Shown here piece after piece: positions 34,044 to 44,406 of a stretch of DNA of 64,000 nt; position 1 is the first letter of the stretch; each line of letters opens with the position of its first letter. Where the stretch lies: positions 806,001 through 870,000 of the forward strand of contig CP094685.1 in NCBI GenBank assembly GCA_022828425.1, in the 5' to 3' direction. A model generated the notes under the pieces. It made no database searches. It was given only the letters and a program-made list of their open reading frames with translations, and had not been told where the DNA came from. Origin of the DNA: Candidatus Thiothrix sulfatifontis. GTDB lineage: Bacteria; Pseudomonadota; Gammaproteobacteria; Thiotrichales; Thiotrichaceae. A program made the translations under genes and the position numbers.

Positions 34044-34616
34044 ATGTTGCTCAAGGACATTGTGTCAGCCAAAGCAGGTTATCCGTTTCGCGGGGCAATC
34101 ACGGCAATACCCAGCGCAGCAGTGCGGGTGGTGCAAATGAAAGATACCTTTGTCGATCAAGCTATTGAGTGGTCAGCTTGTATTTGCACAGAGCTACCCA
34201 GCCAACGCTCAGCAGATTTTTTATCAGAAAATGATATTTTGTTTGTAGCACGCGGTACGAAAAACTATGCCGTGTTAGTCGATGCGGCGGTTGCGAACTA
34301 CCAAGCAGTGGTAGCCCCTCACTTTTATGTATTACGTCTGACAACACCCAGCGTGTTACCTGCATTTCTAGCATGGTGGCTCAATCAATACCCCAGCCAG
34401 CAGTATTTCCAGCGTGAAGCCGAAGGCAGTGTGACCAAAAGCATCCGCCGCAGTGTGTTGGAAAATACCCCTATCGTTGCACCTTCGCTGAGCAAACAAC
34501 ATGCCATTATTGGCTTTGCCAACACTTTGAAGCAGGAACGGGAACTGGCTGAGCAACTACTGCACAATGGTGAGCGATTGATGAATGCCATTGCCAATGA
34601 CTTGTTACATCACTAA
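34044..34616 (+). CDS. Short HsdS-like specificity protein with a single target recognition domain
   Basis: 190 residues. The pattern of one HsdS half: MLLKDIVSAKAGYPFRGAI, then SENDILFVARGTKNYAVLVD, YQAVVAPHFYVLRL, FLAWWLNQYPSQQYFQ, GSVTKSIRRSVLENTPIVAP, and a final helix KQERELAEQLLHNGERLMNAIAND that corresponds to the inter-domain coiled coil. Full HsdS proteins have two such halves (see 37589-38803). It could act as a dimer or be a recombination remnant. Good site GAGG before the ATG; it is the first gene of the island. Confidence 0.75.
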   Translation: MLLKDIVSAKAGYPFRGAITAIPSAAVRVVQMKDTFVDQAIEWSACICTELPSQRSADFLSENDILFVARGTKNYAVLVDAAVANYQAVVAPHFYVLRLTTPSVLPAFLAWWLNQYPSQQYFQREAEGSVTKSIRRSVLENTPIVAPSLSKQHAIIGFANTLKQERELAEQLLHNGERLMNAIANDLLHH

Positions 34617-35463: not shown

Positions 35464-36990
35464 ATGAACGACACCATCAGCCAAGACAGCATCAACAAAG
35501 CCCTGTGGGCAGCCTGCGATACCTTTCGCGGTACGATCAGTGCCGACACGTACAAAGATTTCATCCTCACCATGCTGTTCCTCAAGTACATCTCAGATGT
35601 GTGGCAGGGTCATTACGAACGCTATCAGGCGGAGTACGGCGATGAGCCGGAACTGATTACCGAAATGATGAAAAGCGAACGCTTTGTGCTGCCGCCTATC
35701 GCCAGTTTTTACGCTTTGTATGAGCGTCGTCACGAACCGGGTAACGGTGAGCGCATTGACCAAGCCCTGCACGCGATTGAGGAAGCCAACGGCACGAAAC
35801 TCAAGGATGCAGGCAAAAGTGTGTTCCAAGACATTTCGTTTAACACCGACAAGCTGGGCGAGGAAAAGCAGAAAAACACCATCTTGCGCCACTTGCTGGA
35901 AGATTTTGCCAAGCCGGAACTCAACCTCAAACCCAGCCGCGTGGGGACGCTGGATGTGATTGGCAACGCCTACGAGTACATGATCAAAAACTTTGCTGCC
36001 AGCGGTGGGCAAAAGGCGGGTGAGTTTTATACCCCGCCGGAAGTGTCCGATTTAATGGCGGAATTGCTTGAGCCGCAACCGGGCGACAGCATTTGTGACC
36101 CGGCGTGTGGTTCGGGGTCGTTGCTGATGAAGTGTGGGCGCAAGATCGTCGCCAACTTCGGCAGCAGGCAATACGCGCTGTACGGGCAGGAGGCGATTGG
36201 TTCTACTTGGTCGCTGGCGAAGATGAATATGTTCCTGCATGGCGAAGATAACCACAAGATTGAATGGGGCGACACTATCCGCAACCCCAAATTGCTGGAT
36301 AAAAACGGCAACCTGATGCTGTTTGACATCGTGACTGCCAACCCGCCGTTTTCATTGGACAAATGGGGGCATGACGATGCGGAAAATGACAAATTCAGCC
36401 GTTTCCGGCGTGGCATTCCGCCCAAAACCAAGGGCGACTATGCCTTCATCCTGCACATGATCGAAACGCTGAAGCCGGATACCGGGCGCATGGGCGTGGT
36501 TGTGCCGCATGGGGTATTGTTCCGGGGTTCATCCGAGGGGCAAATCCGCCAGAAGCTGATTGAGGAAAACTTGCTGGATGCGGTGATTGGTTTGCCGGAA
36601 AAGCTGTTTTACGGTACGGGCATTCCGGCGGCGATCCTGCTGTTTCGCAAGGATAAGCACGATACCAGTGTGTTGTTCATTGATGCCAGCCGCGAGTGCA
36701 AGGCGGGCAAGAACCAGAACTTGCTGACGGCGGAGAATATCCGCAAAGTGCTGGAGACGTACCAGACCGGGAAAAGCGTGGAGAAATACGCCTACCTCGC
36801 CAGCCTTGCTGAAATCCGCGAGAACGACTACAACCTCAATATTCCGCGCTACGTCGATACCTTTGAGGAAGAGGAAACCATTGATTTGATAGCGGTACGG
36901 CGCGAGCGGTTGCAACTGCAACAGCAGTTGGCGGCGTTGGAAACGGAGATGGCGGGGTATTTGGAGGAGTTGGGGTATGACTCAAAATAG
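35464..36990 (+). CDS. hsdM: Type I restriction-modification system, methyltransferase subunit HsdM
   Basis: 508 residues, full length. N-terminal HsdM domain: INKALWAACDTFRGTI, YKDFILTMLFLKYISDVW. Methyltransferase motifs: GEFYTPPEVSDLMAEL, SAM site DPACGSGSLLMK, catalytic NPPFSLDKWG, and KGDYAFILHMI. The C-terminal helices end LQQQLAALETEMAGYLEELGY. Makes N6-methyladenine with HsdS. Unlike the common hsdM-hsdS overlap, here a palindrome and a YhcG-like gene lie between hsdM and hsdS. Confidence 0.96.
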   Translation: MNDTISQDSINKALWAACDTFRGTISADTYKDFILTMLFLKYISDVWQGHYERYQAEYGDEPELITEMMKSERFVLPPIASFYALYERRHEPGNGERIDQALHAIEEANGTKLKDAGKSVFQDISFNTDKLGEEKQKNTILRHLLEDFAKPELNLKPSRVGTLDVIGNAYEYMIKNFAASGGQKAGEFYTPPEVSDLMAELLEPQPGDSICDPACGSGSLLMKCGRKIVANFGSRQYALYGQEAIGSTWSLAKMNMFLHGEDNHKIEWGDTIRNPKLLDKNGNLMLFDIVTANPPFSLDKWGHDDAENDKFSRFRRGIPPKTKGDYAFILHMIETLKPDTGRMGVVVPHGVLFRGSSEGQIRQKLIEENLLDAVIGLPEKLFYGTGIPAAILLFRKDKHDTSVLFIDASRECKAGKNQNLLTAENIRKVLETYQTGKSVEKYAYLASLAEIRENDYNLNIPRYVDTFEEEETIDLIAVRRERLQLQQQLAALETEMAGYLEELGYDSK

Positions 36991-37128: not shown

Positions 37129-37599
37129 ATGAAACCAATCTCCCGAAAACATGACATCATCAGCAACCTGCAACAGTTCCTGTTGGAATCGGGCAAGGGA
37201 TTTGCATTTGTGGGGCGCAAGCAACGCATCCGTATCGAAGATCGGAATTTCTACATTGATCTGGTGTTTTACAACATCAAACTCAGATGCTTTCTGCTGA
37301 TTAATCTCAAGCTGGGCAAACTTACGCATCAGGATGTGGAGAAAATGGATACCTACATTCACATCTATGACCAGCACCACAAGGAGGAGGAGGATAACCC
37401 GACGATTGGGCTGGTATTGTGCAGCCAGAAAAGCGAAGTAGTGGTTAAGTATTCGGTTCTCACTGATAGCCAGCAATTGTTCGCTTCCAAATACCTGCCC
37501 TATCTGCCAACGGAAGCAGAACTCAAACGCGAGTTGGAGTGTGAACGGGGATTGGTGGGATGGCAAATCGAAGAAAGCAGGGGGATTTATGCTGTCTGA
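37129..37599 (+). CDS. YhcG/DUF1016 C-terminal PD-(D/E)xK nuclease-like domain, N-terminus missing and motif residue altered
   Basis: 156 residues matching only the C-terminal half of YhcG-family proteins: IISNLQQFLLESGKGFAFVG, IEDRNFYIDLVFYN, GKLTHQDVEKMD, NPTIGLVLCSQKSEVVVKYS, and FASKYLPYLPTEAELKREL. The DUF1016 N-terminal domain is absent, and only 138 bases separate it from hsdM. In the family the nuclease motif reads as IDLK; here it is INLK (codon AAT instead of GAT), so catalysis is doubtful. Its stop overlaps hsdS by 11 bases, so it may survive as a DNA-binding or coupling protein, or be a decaying gene. Confidence 0.77.
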   Translation: MKPISRKHDIISNLQQFLLESGKGFAFVGRKQRIRIEDRNFYIDLVFYNIKLRCFLLINLKLGKLTHQDVEKMDTYIHIYDQHHKEEEDNPTIGLVLCSQKSEVVVKYSVLTDSQQLFASKYLPYLPTEAELKRELECERGLVGWQIEESRGIYAV

Positions 37600-38803
37600 G
37601 GAGTGGAGGATCGGAATAATAAAAGATTTGGCTGACACGGTGATGGGCTACGCATTTAAAAGTACAGATTTTGTTTCCGATGGTGTTCCATTGTTGAGGA
37701 TGGGAAATCTCTATCAAAATACATTGGATTTAAGACGAGATACAGTATATTTGCCAAAAACTTACAAAGATACATATGCAAGATTCATAGTCAGATCAGG
37801 TGATCTTGTTATGTCTATGACTGGCACGATGGGCAAGCGTGACTATGGCTTCACCGTTCAAATACCAGATAGTGCACCAGAATCATTACTAAACCAACGT
37901 GTTATGAAATTCGTTCCTAAGAAAGAGTCAAATTCAGAATATCTATTAAATCTTCTCAGGAGTGAGATTCTGTTGTCTAAGCTGTACTCATTTCCGGGGG
38001 GCACAAAGCAAGCAAACTTATCGGCAAAACAAGTTCAGGATCTACCAGTTCTTATTCCCCCACTCCCCGAACAAAAGAAAATCGCCCAAATCCTCTCCAC
38101 TTGGGACAAAGCCATCACCACCACCGAACAACTTCTTGCCAACAGCCAGCAGCAGAAAAAAGCCCTGATGCAGCAATTGCTGACTGGGAAGAAGCGGTTG
38201 CAGGGGTTTGGGGGCGAGTTCAAACGTTCATATCTCTCTGATCTTGCCAAAATTGACGCTAAAAGTTTAGGGAATAAAACGCCTACAGATTTTGAGTTTC
38301 AATATATTTCATTATCAGACGTAAACGCTGGACGAATAGCAGATAACATAGAGTGTCACAAATTTCATAATGCACCAAGTCGAGCTAGGCGCATTGTATC
38401 TGAAGGTGACATTCTTCTTGCAACAGTACGTCCTAATCTCCAAGGCTTTGTCAAAATTACTAAAGAGTATTCTGACTGTATAGCTTCTACAGGATTTTCT
38501 GTGCTTTCACCGAAAAAAGGTGTTTGTGGTAGTTACTTATATCATTACTTATTTGGTGCTCATATCACGGGACAAATAAATGCATTGGTTGTTGGAACAA
38601 ACTATCCCGCAATTAATTCCTCTGATGTTGCTGGGTTATTGATCTATTATCCAGAGTATGAAGAACAGGAAAAAATTGCAGAATTTTTAAATAACTGTGA
38701 TTCAACACTATCGGTTTTGCAGCAAAAACTTGAGGGTTTGAAGCAGGAGAAGAAAGCCCTGATGCAGCAGTTGTTGACGGGAAAACGGCGGGTGAAAGTA
38801 TGA
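37589..38803 (+). CDS. hsdS: Type I restriction-modification system, specificity subunit HsdS
   Basis: 405 residues with two target recognition domains, each followed by a matching coiled coil: PPLPEQKKIAQILSTWDKAI ... KKALMQQLLTGKKRL after the first and EQEKIAEFLNNCDSTL ... KKALMQQLLTGKRRV after the second. Both TRDs are AT-rich against GC-richer linkers, as expected from domain exchange. I place the start at the ATG 37589 (MLSEEWRIG), overlapping the preceding gene. Determines the DNA target for HsdM and HsdR. Confidence 0.95.
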   Translation: MLSEEWRIGIIKDLADTVMGYAFKSTDFVSDGVPLLRMGNLYQNTLDLRRDTVYLPKTYKDTYARFIVRSGDLVMSMTGTMGKRDYGFTVQIPDSAPESLLNQRVMKFVPKKESNSEYLLNLLRSEILLSKLYSFPGGTKQANLSAKQVQDLPVLIPPLPEQKKIAQILSTWDKAITTTEQLLANSQQQKKALMQQLLTGKKRLQGFGGEFKRSYLSDLAKIDAKSLGNKTPTDFEFQYISLSDVNAGRIADNIECHKFHNAPSRARRIVSEGDILLATVRPNLQGFVKITKEYSDCIASTGFSVLSPKKGVCGSYLYHYLFGAHITGQINALVVGTNYPAINSSDVAGLLIYYPEYEEQEKIAEFLNNCDSTLSVLQQKLEGLKQEKKALMQQLLTGKRRVKV

Positions 38804-38813
38804 GGAAATACGT

Positions 38814-39932
38814 ATGTTGACATACCCGATTAAAATCGAAGGACTCAAAGGCGTAGGCAGCGTCGAGTTGAACTTACAGGAAAACCAGCGGGTTTATACC
38901 CTGATAGGGGCGAATGGTGTTGGTAAAACCAAGACGCTAGAAGCATTGTTTCAGATTTTGTTGGCAACTAATGATGAATTTATAAAAAAAACCCAAGCTC
39001 TAGGTATTAATTGGTGTTTCAAAGGATTGATAGCCGACAGTGTTTTGTCTTTAACCGCTCAGAGTACTGCAAAACAAGCATCACATGTTTTACAGATGCA
39101 AAAAAGTTCTCTTGCTACGCACAACCTACCGATTGTGTTTCTTGCTTCCCAAAACCGGGGATTTATTCAACACGACAACAAACCTGCCCAAGCTATTGGG
39201 ACGCTAGAACAACGCCGTAATGCCTATTTCCAGCGTTTGATTCAAGGCATGAACAACAATTTCACCAGCCTGAATATGGATACGGGCATTGAAGAATGGT
39301 TTGTCACCCTAGCCCAATCCGCTAACCCTTACCAAAAGCAGGAAGATAACCGCGACATCGAAATCCGTGTAGTACTGGAGTTGCTAAACAAAATCGACAG
39401 CCGCATCGACCCCAAATACATGCAAATCAGCGGTGATGGTCGGGTCAATCTGAAAATTGATGGTCAGCCGCGTGAGCTTTCCCATCTGAGTACCGGCTTT
39501 GCCTCCATCCTGAAAATGCTACAGGCGATTGTGTCCGGTTACGGCTATTTCACCAATGAAACCCGCTTGCAACAGGTGAAGGGTATCGTGCTGATTGACG
39601 AAATCGAAAGCCACCTGCATCTGTCTTGGCAAGCAAAAATCATCCCCTTGCTCAAACACTTATTCCCGAATACCACCTTTTACATCACCACCCATTCTTC
39701 CATCGTGCTGTCACAGCTAAAGGCAGGAGAAGCCTATCGCCTGCAACGCGATACCGATGGCGTGGTGCGTACCCAAGCGATTACTTCACCCAATACCACC
39801 TCGTTGATTGATGTGCTGCAAGAAGCCTTTGATATTGATCTAAATCGTCTGAAGCTGGACAGTCTCGTTCCCGCTGATCAACAACAAGCGAAACAACAGT
39901 TGTTGAATCTGATCAATGGGCAAGGGGTTTAA
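38814..39932 (+). CDS. OLD-like AAA/ABC-type ATPase, partner of the downstream PIN nuclease
   Basis: 372 residues, SMC/RecF-like ATPase domain. Walker A LIGANGVGKTKTLEAL (about 31-46), signature LSHLSTGFASILK, Walker B KGIVLIDEIESHLHLSWQ and the switch histidine FYITTHSSIVL. The segment about 38960-39150 is AT-rich. The stop codon abuts the PIN gene ATG without a gap. Known defence systems pair such ATPases with toxic nucleases (for example PARIS, with a TOPRIM partner); here the partner is a PIN domain. Function inferred. Confidence 0.87.
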   Translation: MLTYPIKIEGLKGVGSVELNLQENQRVYTLIGANGVGKTKTLEALFQILLATNDEFIKKTQALGINWCFKGLIADSVLSLTAQSTAKQASHVLQMQKSSLATHNLPIVFLASQNRGFIQHDNKPAQAIGTLEQRRNAYFQRLIQGMNNNFTSLNMDTGIEEWFVTLAQSANPYQKQEDNRDIEIRVVLELLNKIDSRIDPKYMQISGDGRVNLKIDGQPRELSHLSTGFASILKMLQAIVSGYGYFTNETRLQQVKGIVLIDEIESHLHLSWQAKIIPLLKHLFPNTTFYITTHSSIVLSQLKAGEAYRLQRDTDGVVRTQAITSPNTTSLIDVLQEAFDIDLNRLKLDSLVPADQQQAKQQLLNLINGQGV

Positions 39933-40388
39933 ATGACCATGCGCAAGGTTTTATTAGACGCAAACTTATTGATCGCCGCCTTGGATGACGGTAGCACAAC
40001 TTCCGAAACCGAACGTACCAAAGCCAAGCAGACTTTGGCAGCCTTATTGAGCAATGAGGAGGTGACGCTGATTATCACCCCATTGATTCGCTACGAAGTG
40101 CTGCGCGGCATTGGCTGGCAAGATCAGGTACGTTTTGCCCAGTTGAAACAATCACTGGATGGTTTGACCGAGTTGGATGTTAATCGCAATGTCTCCGAAC
40201 TGGCAGCCAACTTATTCCGCTTTGACCGTGCAGAGAATACAGACCAGCAACGCAATATTGAAAAGCGCAAGTTTGATGTGTTCCACCTTGCCAGCGCCAA
40301 GTGCCACGATTTGGAACTGGCATCGCAAGATTCAGACATCGCCGGATTGCAAGGTTTGTATGAGCGTTATACGCAGGCAATCTCATGA
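39933..40388 (+). CDS. PIN-domain ribonuclease-like protein
   Basis: 151 residues. All acidic PIN residues appear present: RKVLLDANLLIAALDD (first Asp), TPLIRYEVLRGIGW (Glu), KRKFDVFHLASAK (Asp) and LASQDSDIAGL (Asp). PIN proteins cut RNA. It follows the ATPase gene with no gap, which suggests co-translation and a joint function such as an ATPase-gated RNase. It may alternatively be a toxin whose antitoxin is not evident; no small antitoxin gene is nearby. Confidence 0.85.
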   Translation: MTMRKVLLDANLLIAALDDGSTTSETERTKAKQTLAALLSNEEVTLIITPLIRYEVLRGIGWQDQVRFAQLKQSLDGLTELDVNRNVSELAANLFRFDRAENTDQQRNIEKRKFDVFHLASAKCHDLELASQDSDIAGLQGLYERYTQAIS

Positions 40389-40434: not shown

Positions 40435-41127
40435 ATGCTAATTTTTAACTGCACCAAAGCCGCCACCGAGTTTTTCACTGTCACCCGCAAAGGCGTGAAG
40501 CAATCGTTTGTACACGCACCGCCTAACAAAGACATCGCCGCAGATGGTCAATACCTGCAAAATGACGAAGGCAAGCCGACGCTGGCTTTCCAGTGGGTAC
40601 TGCACGCCATCACGGTCAAGCGCAAACATTGCCTGATAGCGATGGAAGTCAACACCCGTTTCAGCGTTATCCTCACCGCCATGCCCAAAGGCAATCCCGA
40701 TGCGTTCATTGACCGCTTCAAACCCCGCCTGCTGGATCAGCTATTCGGGTTTGCGTTGCAATCTGGCATCTTGAAGGAAGAGCAGTTTGCCATGTTCATT
40801 AACGAATTCATGGTGCAAGCTGCTGATATTTTCTTGTGCCAACGTTCCGATCGCAGCGTACAAGCTCATATCAACGATGTGGTTTCACAGTTCACCGAAA
40901 CCGTAGATGCCAGCGGGTACGTGCCGGATAACGACCGTGAAATGCTGCATTTCAGCAGTTACATCAACCGTCTATTGCGTAAAACTAAGCAAAGCAGGGA
41001 CTATACCCAGCCAGATGAGCAAATGCTGTTGTTCTGGTTACAGCAATTTTGCGGTTTCACATCAGAACAGGCGGCGGGCATCAAGCAACATTTTTCTGAC
41101 CTGCACCGCCGCAGTTTTGGGGGATAA
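40435..41127 (+). CDS. DUF6933-like protein of unknown function
   Basis: 230 residues. It starts MLIFNCTKAATEFFTVTRKG, then HAPPNKDIAADGQYLQNDEGK, QWVLHAITVKRKHCLIAME, and NTRFSVILTAMPKGNPDAF, which I associate with DUF6933, though not firmly. The C-terminal half (FSSYINRLLRKTKQSRDYTQ) looks helical. Its stop lies 3 bases before hsdR, so it is part of the type I operon. The open frame extends upstream inside the PIN gene; the ATG at 40435 is the natural start. Confidence 0.6.
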   Translation: MLIFNCTKAATEFFTVTRKGVKQSFVHAPPNKDIAADGQYLQNDEGKPTLAFQWVLHAITVKRKHCLIAMEVNTRFSVILTAMPKGNPDAFIDRFKPRLLDQLFGFALQSGILKEEQFAMFINEFMVQAADIFLCQRSDRSVQAHINDVVSQFTETVDASGYVPDNDREMLHFSSYINRLLRKTKQSRDYTQPDEQMLLFWLQQFCGFTSEQAAGIKQHFSDLHRRSFGG

Positions 41128-41130
41128 ATA

Positions 41131-44100
41131 ATGCCAGCCTTGCCACGCTTCCAAGAAGAATACAGTGCCAAACTCCCCGCCTTGGCACTGTTGAGCCAAT
41201 TGGGTTGGTCATTCCTCTCTCCGCAACAGGCCGTGATTGCCCGCCACGGTCACTACGATCAAGTGGTGTTGCGCGACATCTTGCGTAGCGAATTGCAAAA
41301 ACGTCGTTTTATCTTCGCCGGTCGTGAATACGCCCTGTCGAGCCACGCGCTGGATAACCTGATTGCCGAAGTGTGCAGCCCCGCCCTCAACGAAGGTTTG
41401 CTGTCTGCTAACGAAAAGCTCTACAACCATCTGCTGTATGGCATTTCCATCAGCGAATTTGTCGACGGCAAAAAAGCCAACCCGACCATTGCCCTGATCG
41501 ACTGGCACAACCCCGCCAACAACCATTTCAGCTTTACCGAAGAATTCAGCATTACCCGCGCTGGCGGTGTCGATACGCGCCGCCCGGACATCGTGTGTTT
41601 CGTCAACGGCATCCCACTGGTGGTGATTGAAGCCAAACGCCCCAATGGTTACGCGAAAAAAGCCCCGACCATCGACGAAGGCATTTCACAAAGCCTGCGC
41701 AACCAACGCCCCGACGAAATCCCGCACCTGTTCGCCTACAGCCAATTATTGCTCTCCATCAATGGCGCAGAAGGCCGTTACGCAACCTGTGCCACCCCCA
41801 CCAAATTCTGGTCAGCATGGCGCGAGGAAGACATCAGCCCTGCGGAAATGCACGCCATCAAAAACCGCCCGCTGACCGCACTGCAAACCGAACTCCTGTT
41901 TGCCCACCGCACTGCCCAAGATTGGGCGTGGTATCAGGCTTGGAGTGCCGCTGAATTGGCAGTGACGGGTCAAGATCACCTGCTGATCAGTCTGTTACAG
42001 CCGCAACGCTTGCTGGAAATGGTGCGGTTTTACATCCTGTTCGACAAAAAGGTTGGCAAAATTGTTGCGCGTTATCAGCAGGTATTCGGTATCAAACGGC
42101 TGATTGAGCGTATCAACACGCAACGCCCAGACAGCGGACGCGAAGGCGGCGTTATCTGGCACACCACCGGCTCAGGCAAATCCTTCACAATGGTATTCTT
42201 AAGCAAAGCCCTGATCCTGCACGATTCCCTCAAGCACTGCCGCATTCTGGTTGTCACCGACCGGGTAGATTTGGAAAGCCAACTCAGTAAAACCTTCACT
42301 TCCGGCGGCGAGTTAGCCAGCAAAAAAGACAAAGAAGCGGCAATGGCAACCTCCGGCAAACGCCTTGCCGAACAGATTGGCAAAGGCACGGAACGCATTA
42401 TGTTCTCCCTCATCCAGAAGTTTAACAGTGCCACCAAACTGCCCGAATGCCGCAATGCCAGCCCGAATATCATTGTGCTGATCGACGAAGGCCACCGTAG
42501 CCAAGGCGGCGAAAACCACATCCGCATGAAACAGGCATTGCCCAAAGCCGCGTTTGTGGCGTTTACTGGCACGCCCTTGCTGAAAGACGATAAGACCGAA
42601 GGCAAGTTTGGCAAGATCATTCACGCCTACACCATGCAACGCGCTGTGGATGACCAAACCGTTACGCCCTTGTTGTACGAAGAGCGCATCCCCGATCTGG
42701 ATGTCAACGAACGCGCCATTGATAGCTGGTTCGAGCGCATTACTGAAGGCTTGACCGCTGAACAAAAAACCGACCTGAAACGCAAGTTTGCCCGCAAAGG
42801 CGAAATCTACAGCGTGGATGACCGCATCCGCCTGATTGCGCTCGACATTGCTAACCACTTCGTGAAAAACATCGACGACGGCTTGAAAGGGCAACTAGCT
42901 TGCGACAGCAAAGCCTCCGCCATCAAGTACAAACAATACCTCGACGAAGCCGGGTTGTTTGAATCCGCCGTAGTCATGAGTCCACCCGATACCCGCGAAG
43001 GCAATACCGATGTGGATGAAGCCGCCTTGCCCGCCGTGACTAAATGGTGGAAAGACAATATCGGTTCAACCGACGAACAAACCTACACCAAAGCCATCAT
43101 TGAGCGTTTCGACAAAGACGAGGCGTTGAAGCTGCTGATTGTGGTAGACAAGCTGCTGACGGGGTTCGACGAACCGAAAAACACCGTGCTGTATATCGAC
43201 AAGCCGTTAAAGCAACACAACCTGATCCAAGCGATTGCGCGGGTGAACCGTTTGCACCCGCTGAAAAAGTTCGGTTTGCTGATCGACTATCGCGGCATTC
43301 TGGCGGAACTCGATACCACCCTCCAGAAATATCAGGATTTGGCGGCGCGTACCCAAGGCGGTTACGACATCAATGATATTGCGGGTTTGTATAGCCAGAT
43401 GAGTACCGAATACAAACGTTTGCCGCAACTTTACAAAACCTTGTGGGCGATTTTTGCTGGGGTTAAGAATAAGCACGACATTGAGCAATTGCGGCAAGTG
43501 TTAGTGCCGAAAATGGTGGAGCAAAGCGACGAGTTGGTCGATGCCAACCTCAAAGTGCGCGAAGACTTCTACGAAGCCCTGACCGCCTTCGCCAGTTGCC
43601 TGAAAGTCGCGCTGCAATCTGCCACCTTCTTTGCCGATACCAGTTTCAGCGATGCTGACCGCCGCCATTACAAAGAAACCCTCAAGCAATTTTCCAGCCT
43701 GGGCCAATTGGCAAAACAAGACGCAGGCGAAACCATCCAGTACGACCAGTACGCCGCGCAGGTAAAAAAGCTGTTGGACAAGCACGTGGTCGGCGTTGAC
43801 ATCAAAGACGCACAAGGCGTTTACGAAGTGAACAAAATGGGGCAAAAGCAAGCCCCTGAAGATTGGAGCGCGGACAAAACCCGCAACGAAACCGACATTA
43901 TCAAAACCCGCGTGACCCGCATGATCGAGCAGGATTTGCGCGATGACCCTTACGCGCAGGAAGCCTTTTCCAAACTGCTACGCCAAGCTATTGCGAACGC
44001 AGAAAAGTTGTTCGATCACCCGCTCAAGCAATACCTGTTATTCCACGATTTTGCCGAGCAAGTGCAGCAACGGCGCGTACCGGATATGCCGAATGTGTTT

Positions 44101-44406
44101 GTAGGCAATCACCACGCGCAGGCGTATTTCGGCGTGTTCAAACAAACCTTGCCGGAAGTATTCACGGCTGCTGATCAAGCCACGCAAGACCAATGGGTGC
44201 AACTCGCCTTCGGACTGGATGCGCATGTGGAACAATCCGTCGCCGAACATTCCATCAACCCGCAAAACATCGAAGCCGACATCCGTAAAAAACTGCTGCC
44301 GCTGCTGTTCAAAGAGTGCAAAGCGATTGGCGGTGGCATGGATCAGGCTAAAGCAATGGTTGAACGGGTAGTGCAGATTGTGCGCGTAGGCTTGAGTGGG
44401 ATGTAA
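41131..44406 (+). CDS. hsdR: Type I restriction-modification system, restriction and translocase subunit HsdR
   Basis: 1091 residues, full length. The N-terminal endonuclease domain has RPDIVCFVNGIPLVVIEAKRP (the Asp and E-x-K of PD-(D/E)xK). Translocase motifs: Walker A WHTTGSGKSFTMV, VTDRVDLESQL, IVLIDEGHRSQGG, AFTGTPLLK, LLTGFDEP and QAIARVNRLHP. The C-terminal region is HsdR-type helical. Translocates DNA with ATP and cuts far from the site. Site GGGGGAT before the ATG. Nothing suggests inactivation. Confidence 0.97.
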   Translation: MPALPRFQEEYSAKLPALALLSQLGWSFLSPQQAVIARHGHYDQVVLRDILRSELQKRRFIFAGREYALSSHALDNLIAEVCSPALNEGLLSANEKLYNHLLYGISISEFVDGKKANPTIALIDWHNPANNHFSFTEEFSITRAGGVDTRRPDIVCFVNGIPLVVIEAKRPNGYAKKAPTIDEGISQSLRNQRPDEIPHLFAYSQLLLSINGAEGRYATCATPTKFWSAWREEDISPAEMHAIKNRPLTALQTELLFAHRTAQDWAWYQAWSAAELAVTGQDHLLISLLQPQRLLEMVRFYILFDKKVGKIVARYQQVFGIKRLIERINTQRPDSGREGGVIWHTTGSGKSFTMVFLSKALILHDSLKHCRILVVTDRVDLESQLSKTFTSGGELASKKDKEAAMATSGKRLAEQIGKGTERIMFSLIQKFNSATKLPECRNASPNIIVLIDEGHRSQGGENHIRMKQALPKAAFVAFTGTPLLKDDKTEGKFGKIIHAYTMQRAVDDQTVTPLLYEERIPDLDVNERAIDSWFERITEGLTAEQKTDLKRKFARKGEIYSVDDRIRLIALDIANHFVKNIDDGLKGQLACDSKASAIKYKQYLDEAGLFESAVVMSPPDTREGNTDVDEAALPAVTKWWKDNIGSTDEQTYTKAIIERFDKDEALKLLIVVDKLLTGFDEPKNTVLYIDKPLKQHNLIQAIARVNRLHPLKKFGLLIDYRGILAELDTTLQKYQDLAARTQGGYDINDIAGLYSQMSTEYKRLPQLYKTLWAIFAGVKNKHDIEQLRQVLVPKMVEQSDELVDANLKVREDFYEALTAFASCLKVALQSATFFADTSFSDADRRHYKETLKQFSSLGQLAKQDAGETIQYDQYAAQVKKLLDKHVVGVDIKDAQGVYEVNKMGQKQAPEDWSADKTRNETDIIKTRVTRMIEQDLRDDPYAQEAFSKLLRQAIANAEKLFDHPLKQYLLFHDFAEQVQQRRVPDMPNVFVGNHHAQAYFGVFKQTLPEVFTAADQATQDQWVQLAFGLDAHVEQSVAEHSINPQNIEADIRKKLLPLLFKECKAIGGGMDQAKAMVERVVQIVRVGLSGM

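Follow-up and report, generated by a model that had tools for sequence, protein, structure and literature searches.

The window, by which we mean the whole 64,000-nucleotide stretch analyzed here, comes from a 3.69-Mb genome of the Thiothrix group and carries a set of hsd genes between ureC and ureE. Reading along the insert, hsdM begins at 35464, hsdS at 37541, a DUF6933 gene at 40438 and hsdR at 41131, and two further plus-strand genes, an ATPase and a PIN protein, occupy the interval between hsdS and the DUF6933 gene. The TAA of the ATPase frame directly abuts the ATG of the PIN frame, as an earlier note on this DNA had it. The ATPase itself starts 10 bases past the hsdS stop, and the GAGGAAA lying over that stop suggests translational coupling of the ATPase to hsdS. 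The features are as follows.

37541 to 38803, plus strand: hsdS, upstream neighbor; context, not needed for the module
38802 to 38808, plus strand: GAGGAAA ribosome-binding site of the ATPase, overlapping the hsdS stop (sequence)
38814 to 39932, plus strand: PtuA-like ABC ATPase, 372 aa, proposed sensor and regulator (ORF; PADLOC PtuA; VIA Z to PtuA structures)
38907 to 38930, plus strand: Walker A GANGVGKT, residues 32-39 (motif and conservation in relatives)
38958 to 39125, plus strand: hypervariable exchangeable cassette, residues 49-104 (allele comparison; low-confidence part of the AF2 model)
39486 to 39500, plus strand: ABC signature LSTGF, residues 225-229 (motif and conservation in relatives)
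39585 to 39602, plus strand: Walker B IVLIDE, residues 258-263 (motif and conservation in relatives)
39693 to 39695, plus strand: H-loop (switch) His294 (motif and conservation in relatives)
39933 to 40388, plus strand: PIN ribonuclease, 151 aa, proposed effector, with acids D9, E55, D115 and D133 (Pfam PIN; VapC-like fold; conserved acids)
41131 to 44406, plus strand: hsdR, downstream neighbor; context, not needed for the module

Several other features of the insert deserve mention in their own right. The DUF6933 (PDC-S63) gene at 40438-41127, which separates the PIN gene from hsdR, recurs in L003 and L071 and has no match in L002. The C-terminal 156 aa of a PDC-S02 (YhcG/DUF1016-like) protein persist as a remnant at 37129-37599; at the same site, L002 has a longer version of 384 aa. 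Upstream of hsdM lie a half-length hsdS with a single recognition domain (34044-34616) and, after it, dinD.

The Walker A, signature, Walker B and H-loop His294 motifs of the ATPase are largely invariant or nearly so across 35 aligned relatives, and its Pfam matches are AAA_21/AAA_15. The PADLOC PtuA match has an E value of 5e-36, and all 35 aligned ATPases match PADLOC PtuA models; against the NCBIfam PtuA model, the score is 96 bits, for a cut-off of 500 bits. A profile search of the PDB gave 3e-26 for PtuA versus 8e-4 for GajA. The AlphaFold2 model (mean pLDDT 79.7) gave VIA structural Z scores of 23.8 for PtuA of Septu and retrons, 15.6 for AriA of PARIS and about 14 for SMC/Rad50, with a Foldseek value against PtuA of 2.5e-16. 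Pfam finds no TOPRIM domain on the ATPase chain, which ends at residue 372, and PtuA structures align over 1-372. By profile and model comparison, the protein is closest to Septu and retron PtuA, then to PARIS AriA, and only distantly to OLD. The earlier description of an “OLD-like ATPase” was therefore right about an intact ABC-type ATPase with all the named motifs, but “OLD-like” is loose, since PtuA is far closer.

For the downstream protein, D9, E55 and D115 do not vary among 34 relatives and D133 hardly does, in agreement with the earlier reading of its acidic residues as intact. It matches Pfam PIN (PF01850) with an E value of 8e-9 and has no HNH match; its AlphaFold2 model (mean pLDDT 89.8) matches VapC toxins in structure comparison. 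The specific family models are less responsive: 31.6 bits against NCBIfam VapC, below the 80-bit cut-off, and in PADLOC nothing better than a borderline match to a candidate family (E 0.001; 2 of the 34 PIN proteins). No VapB-like small DNA-binding partner stands beside the PIN gene, its neighbors being the ATPase and DUF6933/hsdR. Both the fold and the Pfam match are PIN and not TOPRIM, which bears out the suggestion that the effector chemistry differs from that of PARIS. Since the ATPase fold matches PtuA and the PIN fold matches VapC, the unit resembles Septu, except that a PIN protein takes the place of the HNH protein PtuB.

How tightly are the two genes associated? With only the ATPase as query, a scan recovered 39 loci, and a PIN gene lies directly downstream in 37 of them, the exceptions being an HNH gene in a distant relative (L037) and a contig end. 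The paired loci, in which the two frames often overlap as ATGA, reach down to about 30% ATPase identity and span gamma- and betaproteobacteria and Campylobacterota; a few are disrupted in one gene (the ATPase in L024, the PIN in L026). Distances between PIN proteins follow those between ATPase cores (Mantel r 0.89, p 2e-4), a correlation that linkage and shared ancestry alone may cause. The pairing exceeds chance, and ATPase and PIN are one conserved two-gene unit. Its prevalence is low, with the PIN-type pair in 9 of 369 genomes of the class; the ATPase occurs in 10 of 16 genomes of the genus and in 20 of 105 Psychrobacter, so that most Psychrobacter lack the pair. Among viral contigs and phage records, the ATPase scan found only weak relatives, at about 25-27% for most of the sequence and more only in short motifs, and E. 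coli held no close DNA relative. A second ATPase-PIN pair, with a shorter ATPase of 313 aa, is present in the window's own genome (L077:7568-8949; G000:C1 about 419570-420950). One apparent Bacteroidota member (L025) was dropped: its contig is labeled Cytophagales, but its carB is 82% identical to Comamonadaceae carB, and the contig is therefore probably mis-binned betaproteobacterial DNA.

The genomic settings of the pair are diverse. Together with hsd genes, between ureC and ureE, it is found in five Thiothrix genomes (the window, L002, L003, L070 and L071), where it lies inside the hsd genes (hsdS/hsdR); with Thiothrix eikelboomii (L001), these form one clade of the tree, and the hsd setting is limited to that clade. 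In island-free relatives, the ureC-ureE gap is about 12 bases. T. eikelboomii carries the pair alone at ureC|ureE, with both reading frames intact and no hsd genes; there, the PIN end is fused to the ygjP tail (window position 40368 joins 45122), and so DUF6933, hsdR and ygjP have been lost while the pair is still open. Elsewhere, the pair lies between carA and carB in eight loci that make up one clade (L017, L023, L025, L026, L027, L029, L030 and L031), at GATase_4|ychJ in Psychrobacter L012 (the gene layout of the other Psychrobacter loci agrees), and, as a degraded Neisseria copy, between nuoL and nuoM; further neighbors include hsp20, a PAPS-reductase-like gene and jetD of Wadjet, among others. 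Most of these locations are housekeeping operons, not defense islands, and the pair moves between unrelated operons.

Some of these sites have additional content. The nuoL/nuoM remnants of ATPase and PIN are at L044:9974-11614, in a Neisseria gonorrhoeae record, and at L010:21-3850, the pair and a CcbP-like gene are flanked by jetD on one side and an SbcC/RAD50-like Walker B fragment on the other. In Moraxella, the pair is separated from carA by an HNH_2 protein (L029:4600-5322, by Pfam; L031:9250-9972, same size and position). The carA|carB site is a variable slot: seven of 30 Psychrobacter genomes (L136-L142) have other inserts of about 0.6-1.9 kb there, and several of these encode proteins that look secreted.

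In stark contrast to the rest of the ATPase, residues 49-104 have a mean pairwise identity of 0.24 among six full-length Thiothrix alleles, versus 0.97 elsewhere (permutation p 1e-4). In the AlphaFold2 model, this segment, which we call the cassette, follows the Walker A helix and precedes the strand that runs to the Q-loop; no other part of the ATPase is modeled with less confidence. DNA homology to the window is lost at about 38956-38962 and is back at 39125-39128 in 3 of 4 comparisons, with 38974 and 39126 in the fourth. L070, for example, is 99.0% identical to the window over 39128-40370 and unrelated inside the cassette, with synonymous differences of 0.053 in the core and 0.73, that is, saturated, in the cassette. 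With synonymous sites saturated inside and nearly unchanged outside, the segment must have been replaced, not mutated. The opposite pattern, recent cassettes on older backgrounds, is seen in L021-L110 (synonymous differences of 0.00 for the cassette versus 0.44 for the core), L019-L032 (0.04 versus 0.49) and L001-L071 (0.06 versus 0.27), as well as in L018-L109, L016-L108 and L013-L015; in Psychrobacter, the shared tract extends past the cassette. Genome pairs thus share cassettes far younger than their backgrounds, indicating exchange by recombination. The cassettes fall into recurring allele classes that differ in length and are exchanged whole. The second pair of the window's genome and its genus relatives have an ATPase variable at the same place, and in E. 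coli, two Septu PtuA alleles compared with each other show a mild identity dip there.

As to the source of this diversity, a diversity-generating retroelement was considered and rejected, the genome's single RVT_1 match lying 1.8 Mb away; allelic differences extend to length and fall at every codon position, which also counts against such an origin. The window's cassette is present in one copy in the genus, and no local template repeat, silent cassette copies or retroelement were found. The cassette is also unlikely to be an element matching ATPase to PIN, because L073 and L075 have near-identical PIN proteins with different cassettes, and the cassette-PIN distance correlation is the lowest of those compared.

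What, then, might the pair do? We favor, as somewhat the better bet, a Septu-like abortive-infection module in which PIN replaces HNH and the ATPase carries a swappable recognition cassette. By analogy with PtuAB and PARIS, whose nucleases are gated by an ATPase and cleave tRNA when phage infects (PMC13096335, PMC11555353, PMC12409363), a putatively oligomeric PtuA-type ABC ATPase would hold or license the PIN ribonuclease; the cassette, located in the lobe of the ATPase that separates Walker A from the Q-loop, would contact a phage-made trigger; an ATP-dependent change would free or activate PIN, which would cut cellular RNA, with a tRNA as the likeliest substrate; and translation would halt before phage is made, the infection being ended by self-arrest of the cell. 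PIN enzymes often cut tRNA, and the toxicity of PtuAB reportedly takes both of its proteins. For Septu and retron-Eco7 PtuAB, tRNA-Tyr is depleted or cleaved, and Septu requires both its ATPase and its nuclease motifs (PMC13096335, PMC11555353). However, the Septu PtuAB of E. coli ATCC25922 targets DNA, according to work cited in PMC11555353, and kinship to PtuA therefore leaves RNA as the PIN target unsettled.

The diversification and exchange of the cassette fit an arms race. On allele comparisons, we put at about even the chance that residues 49-104 are a phage-recognition cassette, such that a swap of about 56 residues would change the triggering phages and leave the PIN effector as it was. 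A less probable reading is that the cassette is a surface attacked by phage inhibitors, its variability being escape from anti-defense, with the trigger (e.g., DNA ends or ATP/nucleotide state) sensed by conserved parts. Hypervariability and exchange are expected of an evasion surface as well as of a recognition surface, and in published modeling Gp49.2, a phage inhibitor, sits at the ATPase domain of P2 OLD (PMC13096335). Against this, recurring allele classes, length differences and whole exchange are more like recognition modules, although they are not decisive.

It is rather improbable that the pair is an addiction module of the toxin-antitoxin kind, in which the ATPase merely neutralizes PIN and prevents loss of the locus, with no specific phage sensing. 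A VapC-type PIN with a coupled upstream partner would suit such a module, as would the retention of the pair in T. eikelboomii after hsd loss and its stability at one locus in many Psychrobacter; but neutralization does not call for a full ATPase of 372 aa whose cassette is hypervariable and exchanged, there is no VapB-like DNA-binding antitoxin, and most Psychrobacter do without the pair. Least credible of all is the earlier note's model of a guard on type I restriction, triggered by anti-restriction proteins such as Ocr, which does trigger PARIS AriA (PMC12409363): the five Thiothrix genomes with the pair between hsdS and hsdR speak for it, but the linkage is confined to one clade, relatives sit in carAB, nuoLM and other operons, T. 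eikelboomii has the pair without hsd, and unrelated modules, DarTG2 among them, are known to insert at hsdS|hsdR (PMC12255303).

The hsd context is thus incidental, the pair being independent of the surrounding restriction genes, and the proposed anti-restriction trigger is unsupported. Of the loci found, only those of the one Thiothrix clade have hsd genes around the pair, and the occurrence of the pair outside defense contexts, the earlier note's own ground for refutation, counts against hsd dependence, not against a defense role. What survives of the “ATPase-gated RNase defense module” is the conserved unit and an effector unlike the TOPRIM of PARIS and the HNH of Septu; what does not is the hsd context as the setter of the trigger.

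A literature search found neither an ATPase-PIN defense pair nor a hypervariable PtuA segment in the open literature, coverage of which is incomplete, with several key papers outside it. New here are PIN as the proposed effector of a PtuA-type ATPase and the hypervariable, exchanged cassette at residues 49-104. For the question of how PtuA/OLD-family ATPases recognize infection, a small, naturally shuffled cassette is a candidate recognition surface; near-identical Thiothrix or Psychrobacter alleles with different cassettes make the question testable by swaps. Moreover, a defense-like module within housekeeping operons would be missed by searches based on defense islands.

Among known systems, RloC and PrrC are ATP-gated RNases, as is proposed for the pair, and PrrC is linked to hsd genes. 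Their nuclease domain is HEPN, and they are named as HEPN tRNA nucleases (PMC12409363); here, the nuclease is a separate PIN protein, and the hsd linkage is incidental. VapBC shares a PIN ribonuclease of the VapC fold, but the partner here is a large ABC ATPase and not a small DNA-binding antitoxin. Phage defense by DefensePredictor systems DS-3 and DS-5 requires a PIN domain (PMC13092281), but DS-3 has no partner and that of DS-5 is DUF5830/AcrIF4-like, unlike the ABC ATPase here. OLD nucleases, including GajA, carry a C-terminal TOPRIM on the ATPase chain that is absent from this one. PARIS (AriA-AriB) likewise combines an ABC ATPase sensor with a separate nuclease effector, which cuts tRNA (PMC12409363), but AriB is TOPRIM and AriA is the weaker structural match (Z 15.6). 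The exchange of cassettes proposed here resembles that of HsdS target-recognition domains. The nearest likeness is to the PtuAB of Septu and of retrons Ec78/Ec83, which share the PtuA-type ATPase fold (Z about 23) and a coupled downstream nuclease gene; they differ in an HNH nuclease (PtuB) in place of PIN, in an ATPase of about 410-550 aa against 372 aa, and, for Septu PtuA, in having at most, in one E. coli allele pair, a mild version of the strong hypervariable cassette. PIN would thereby join HNH and TOPRIM as an effector behind this class of ATPase.
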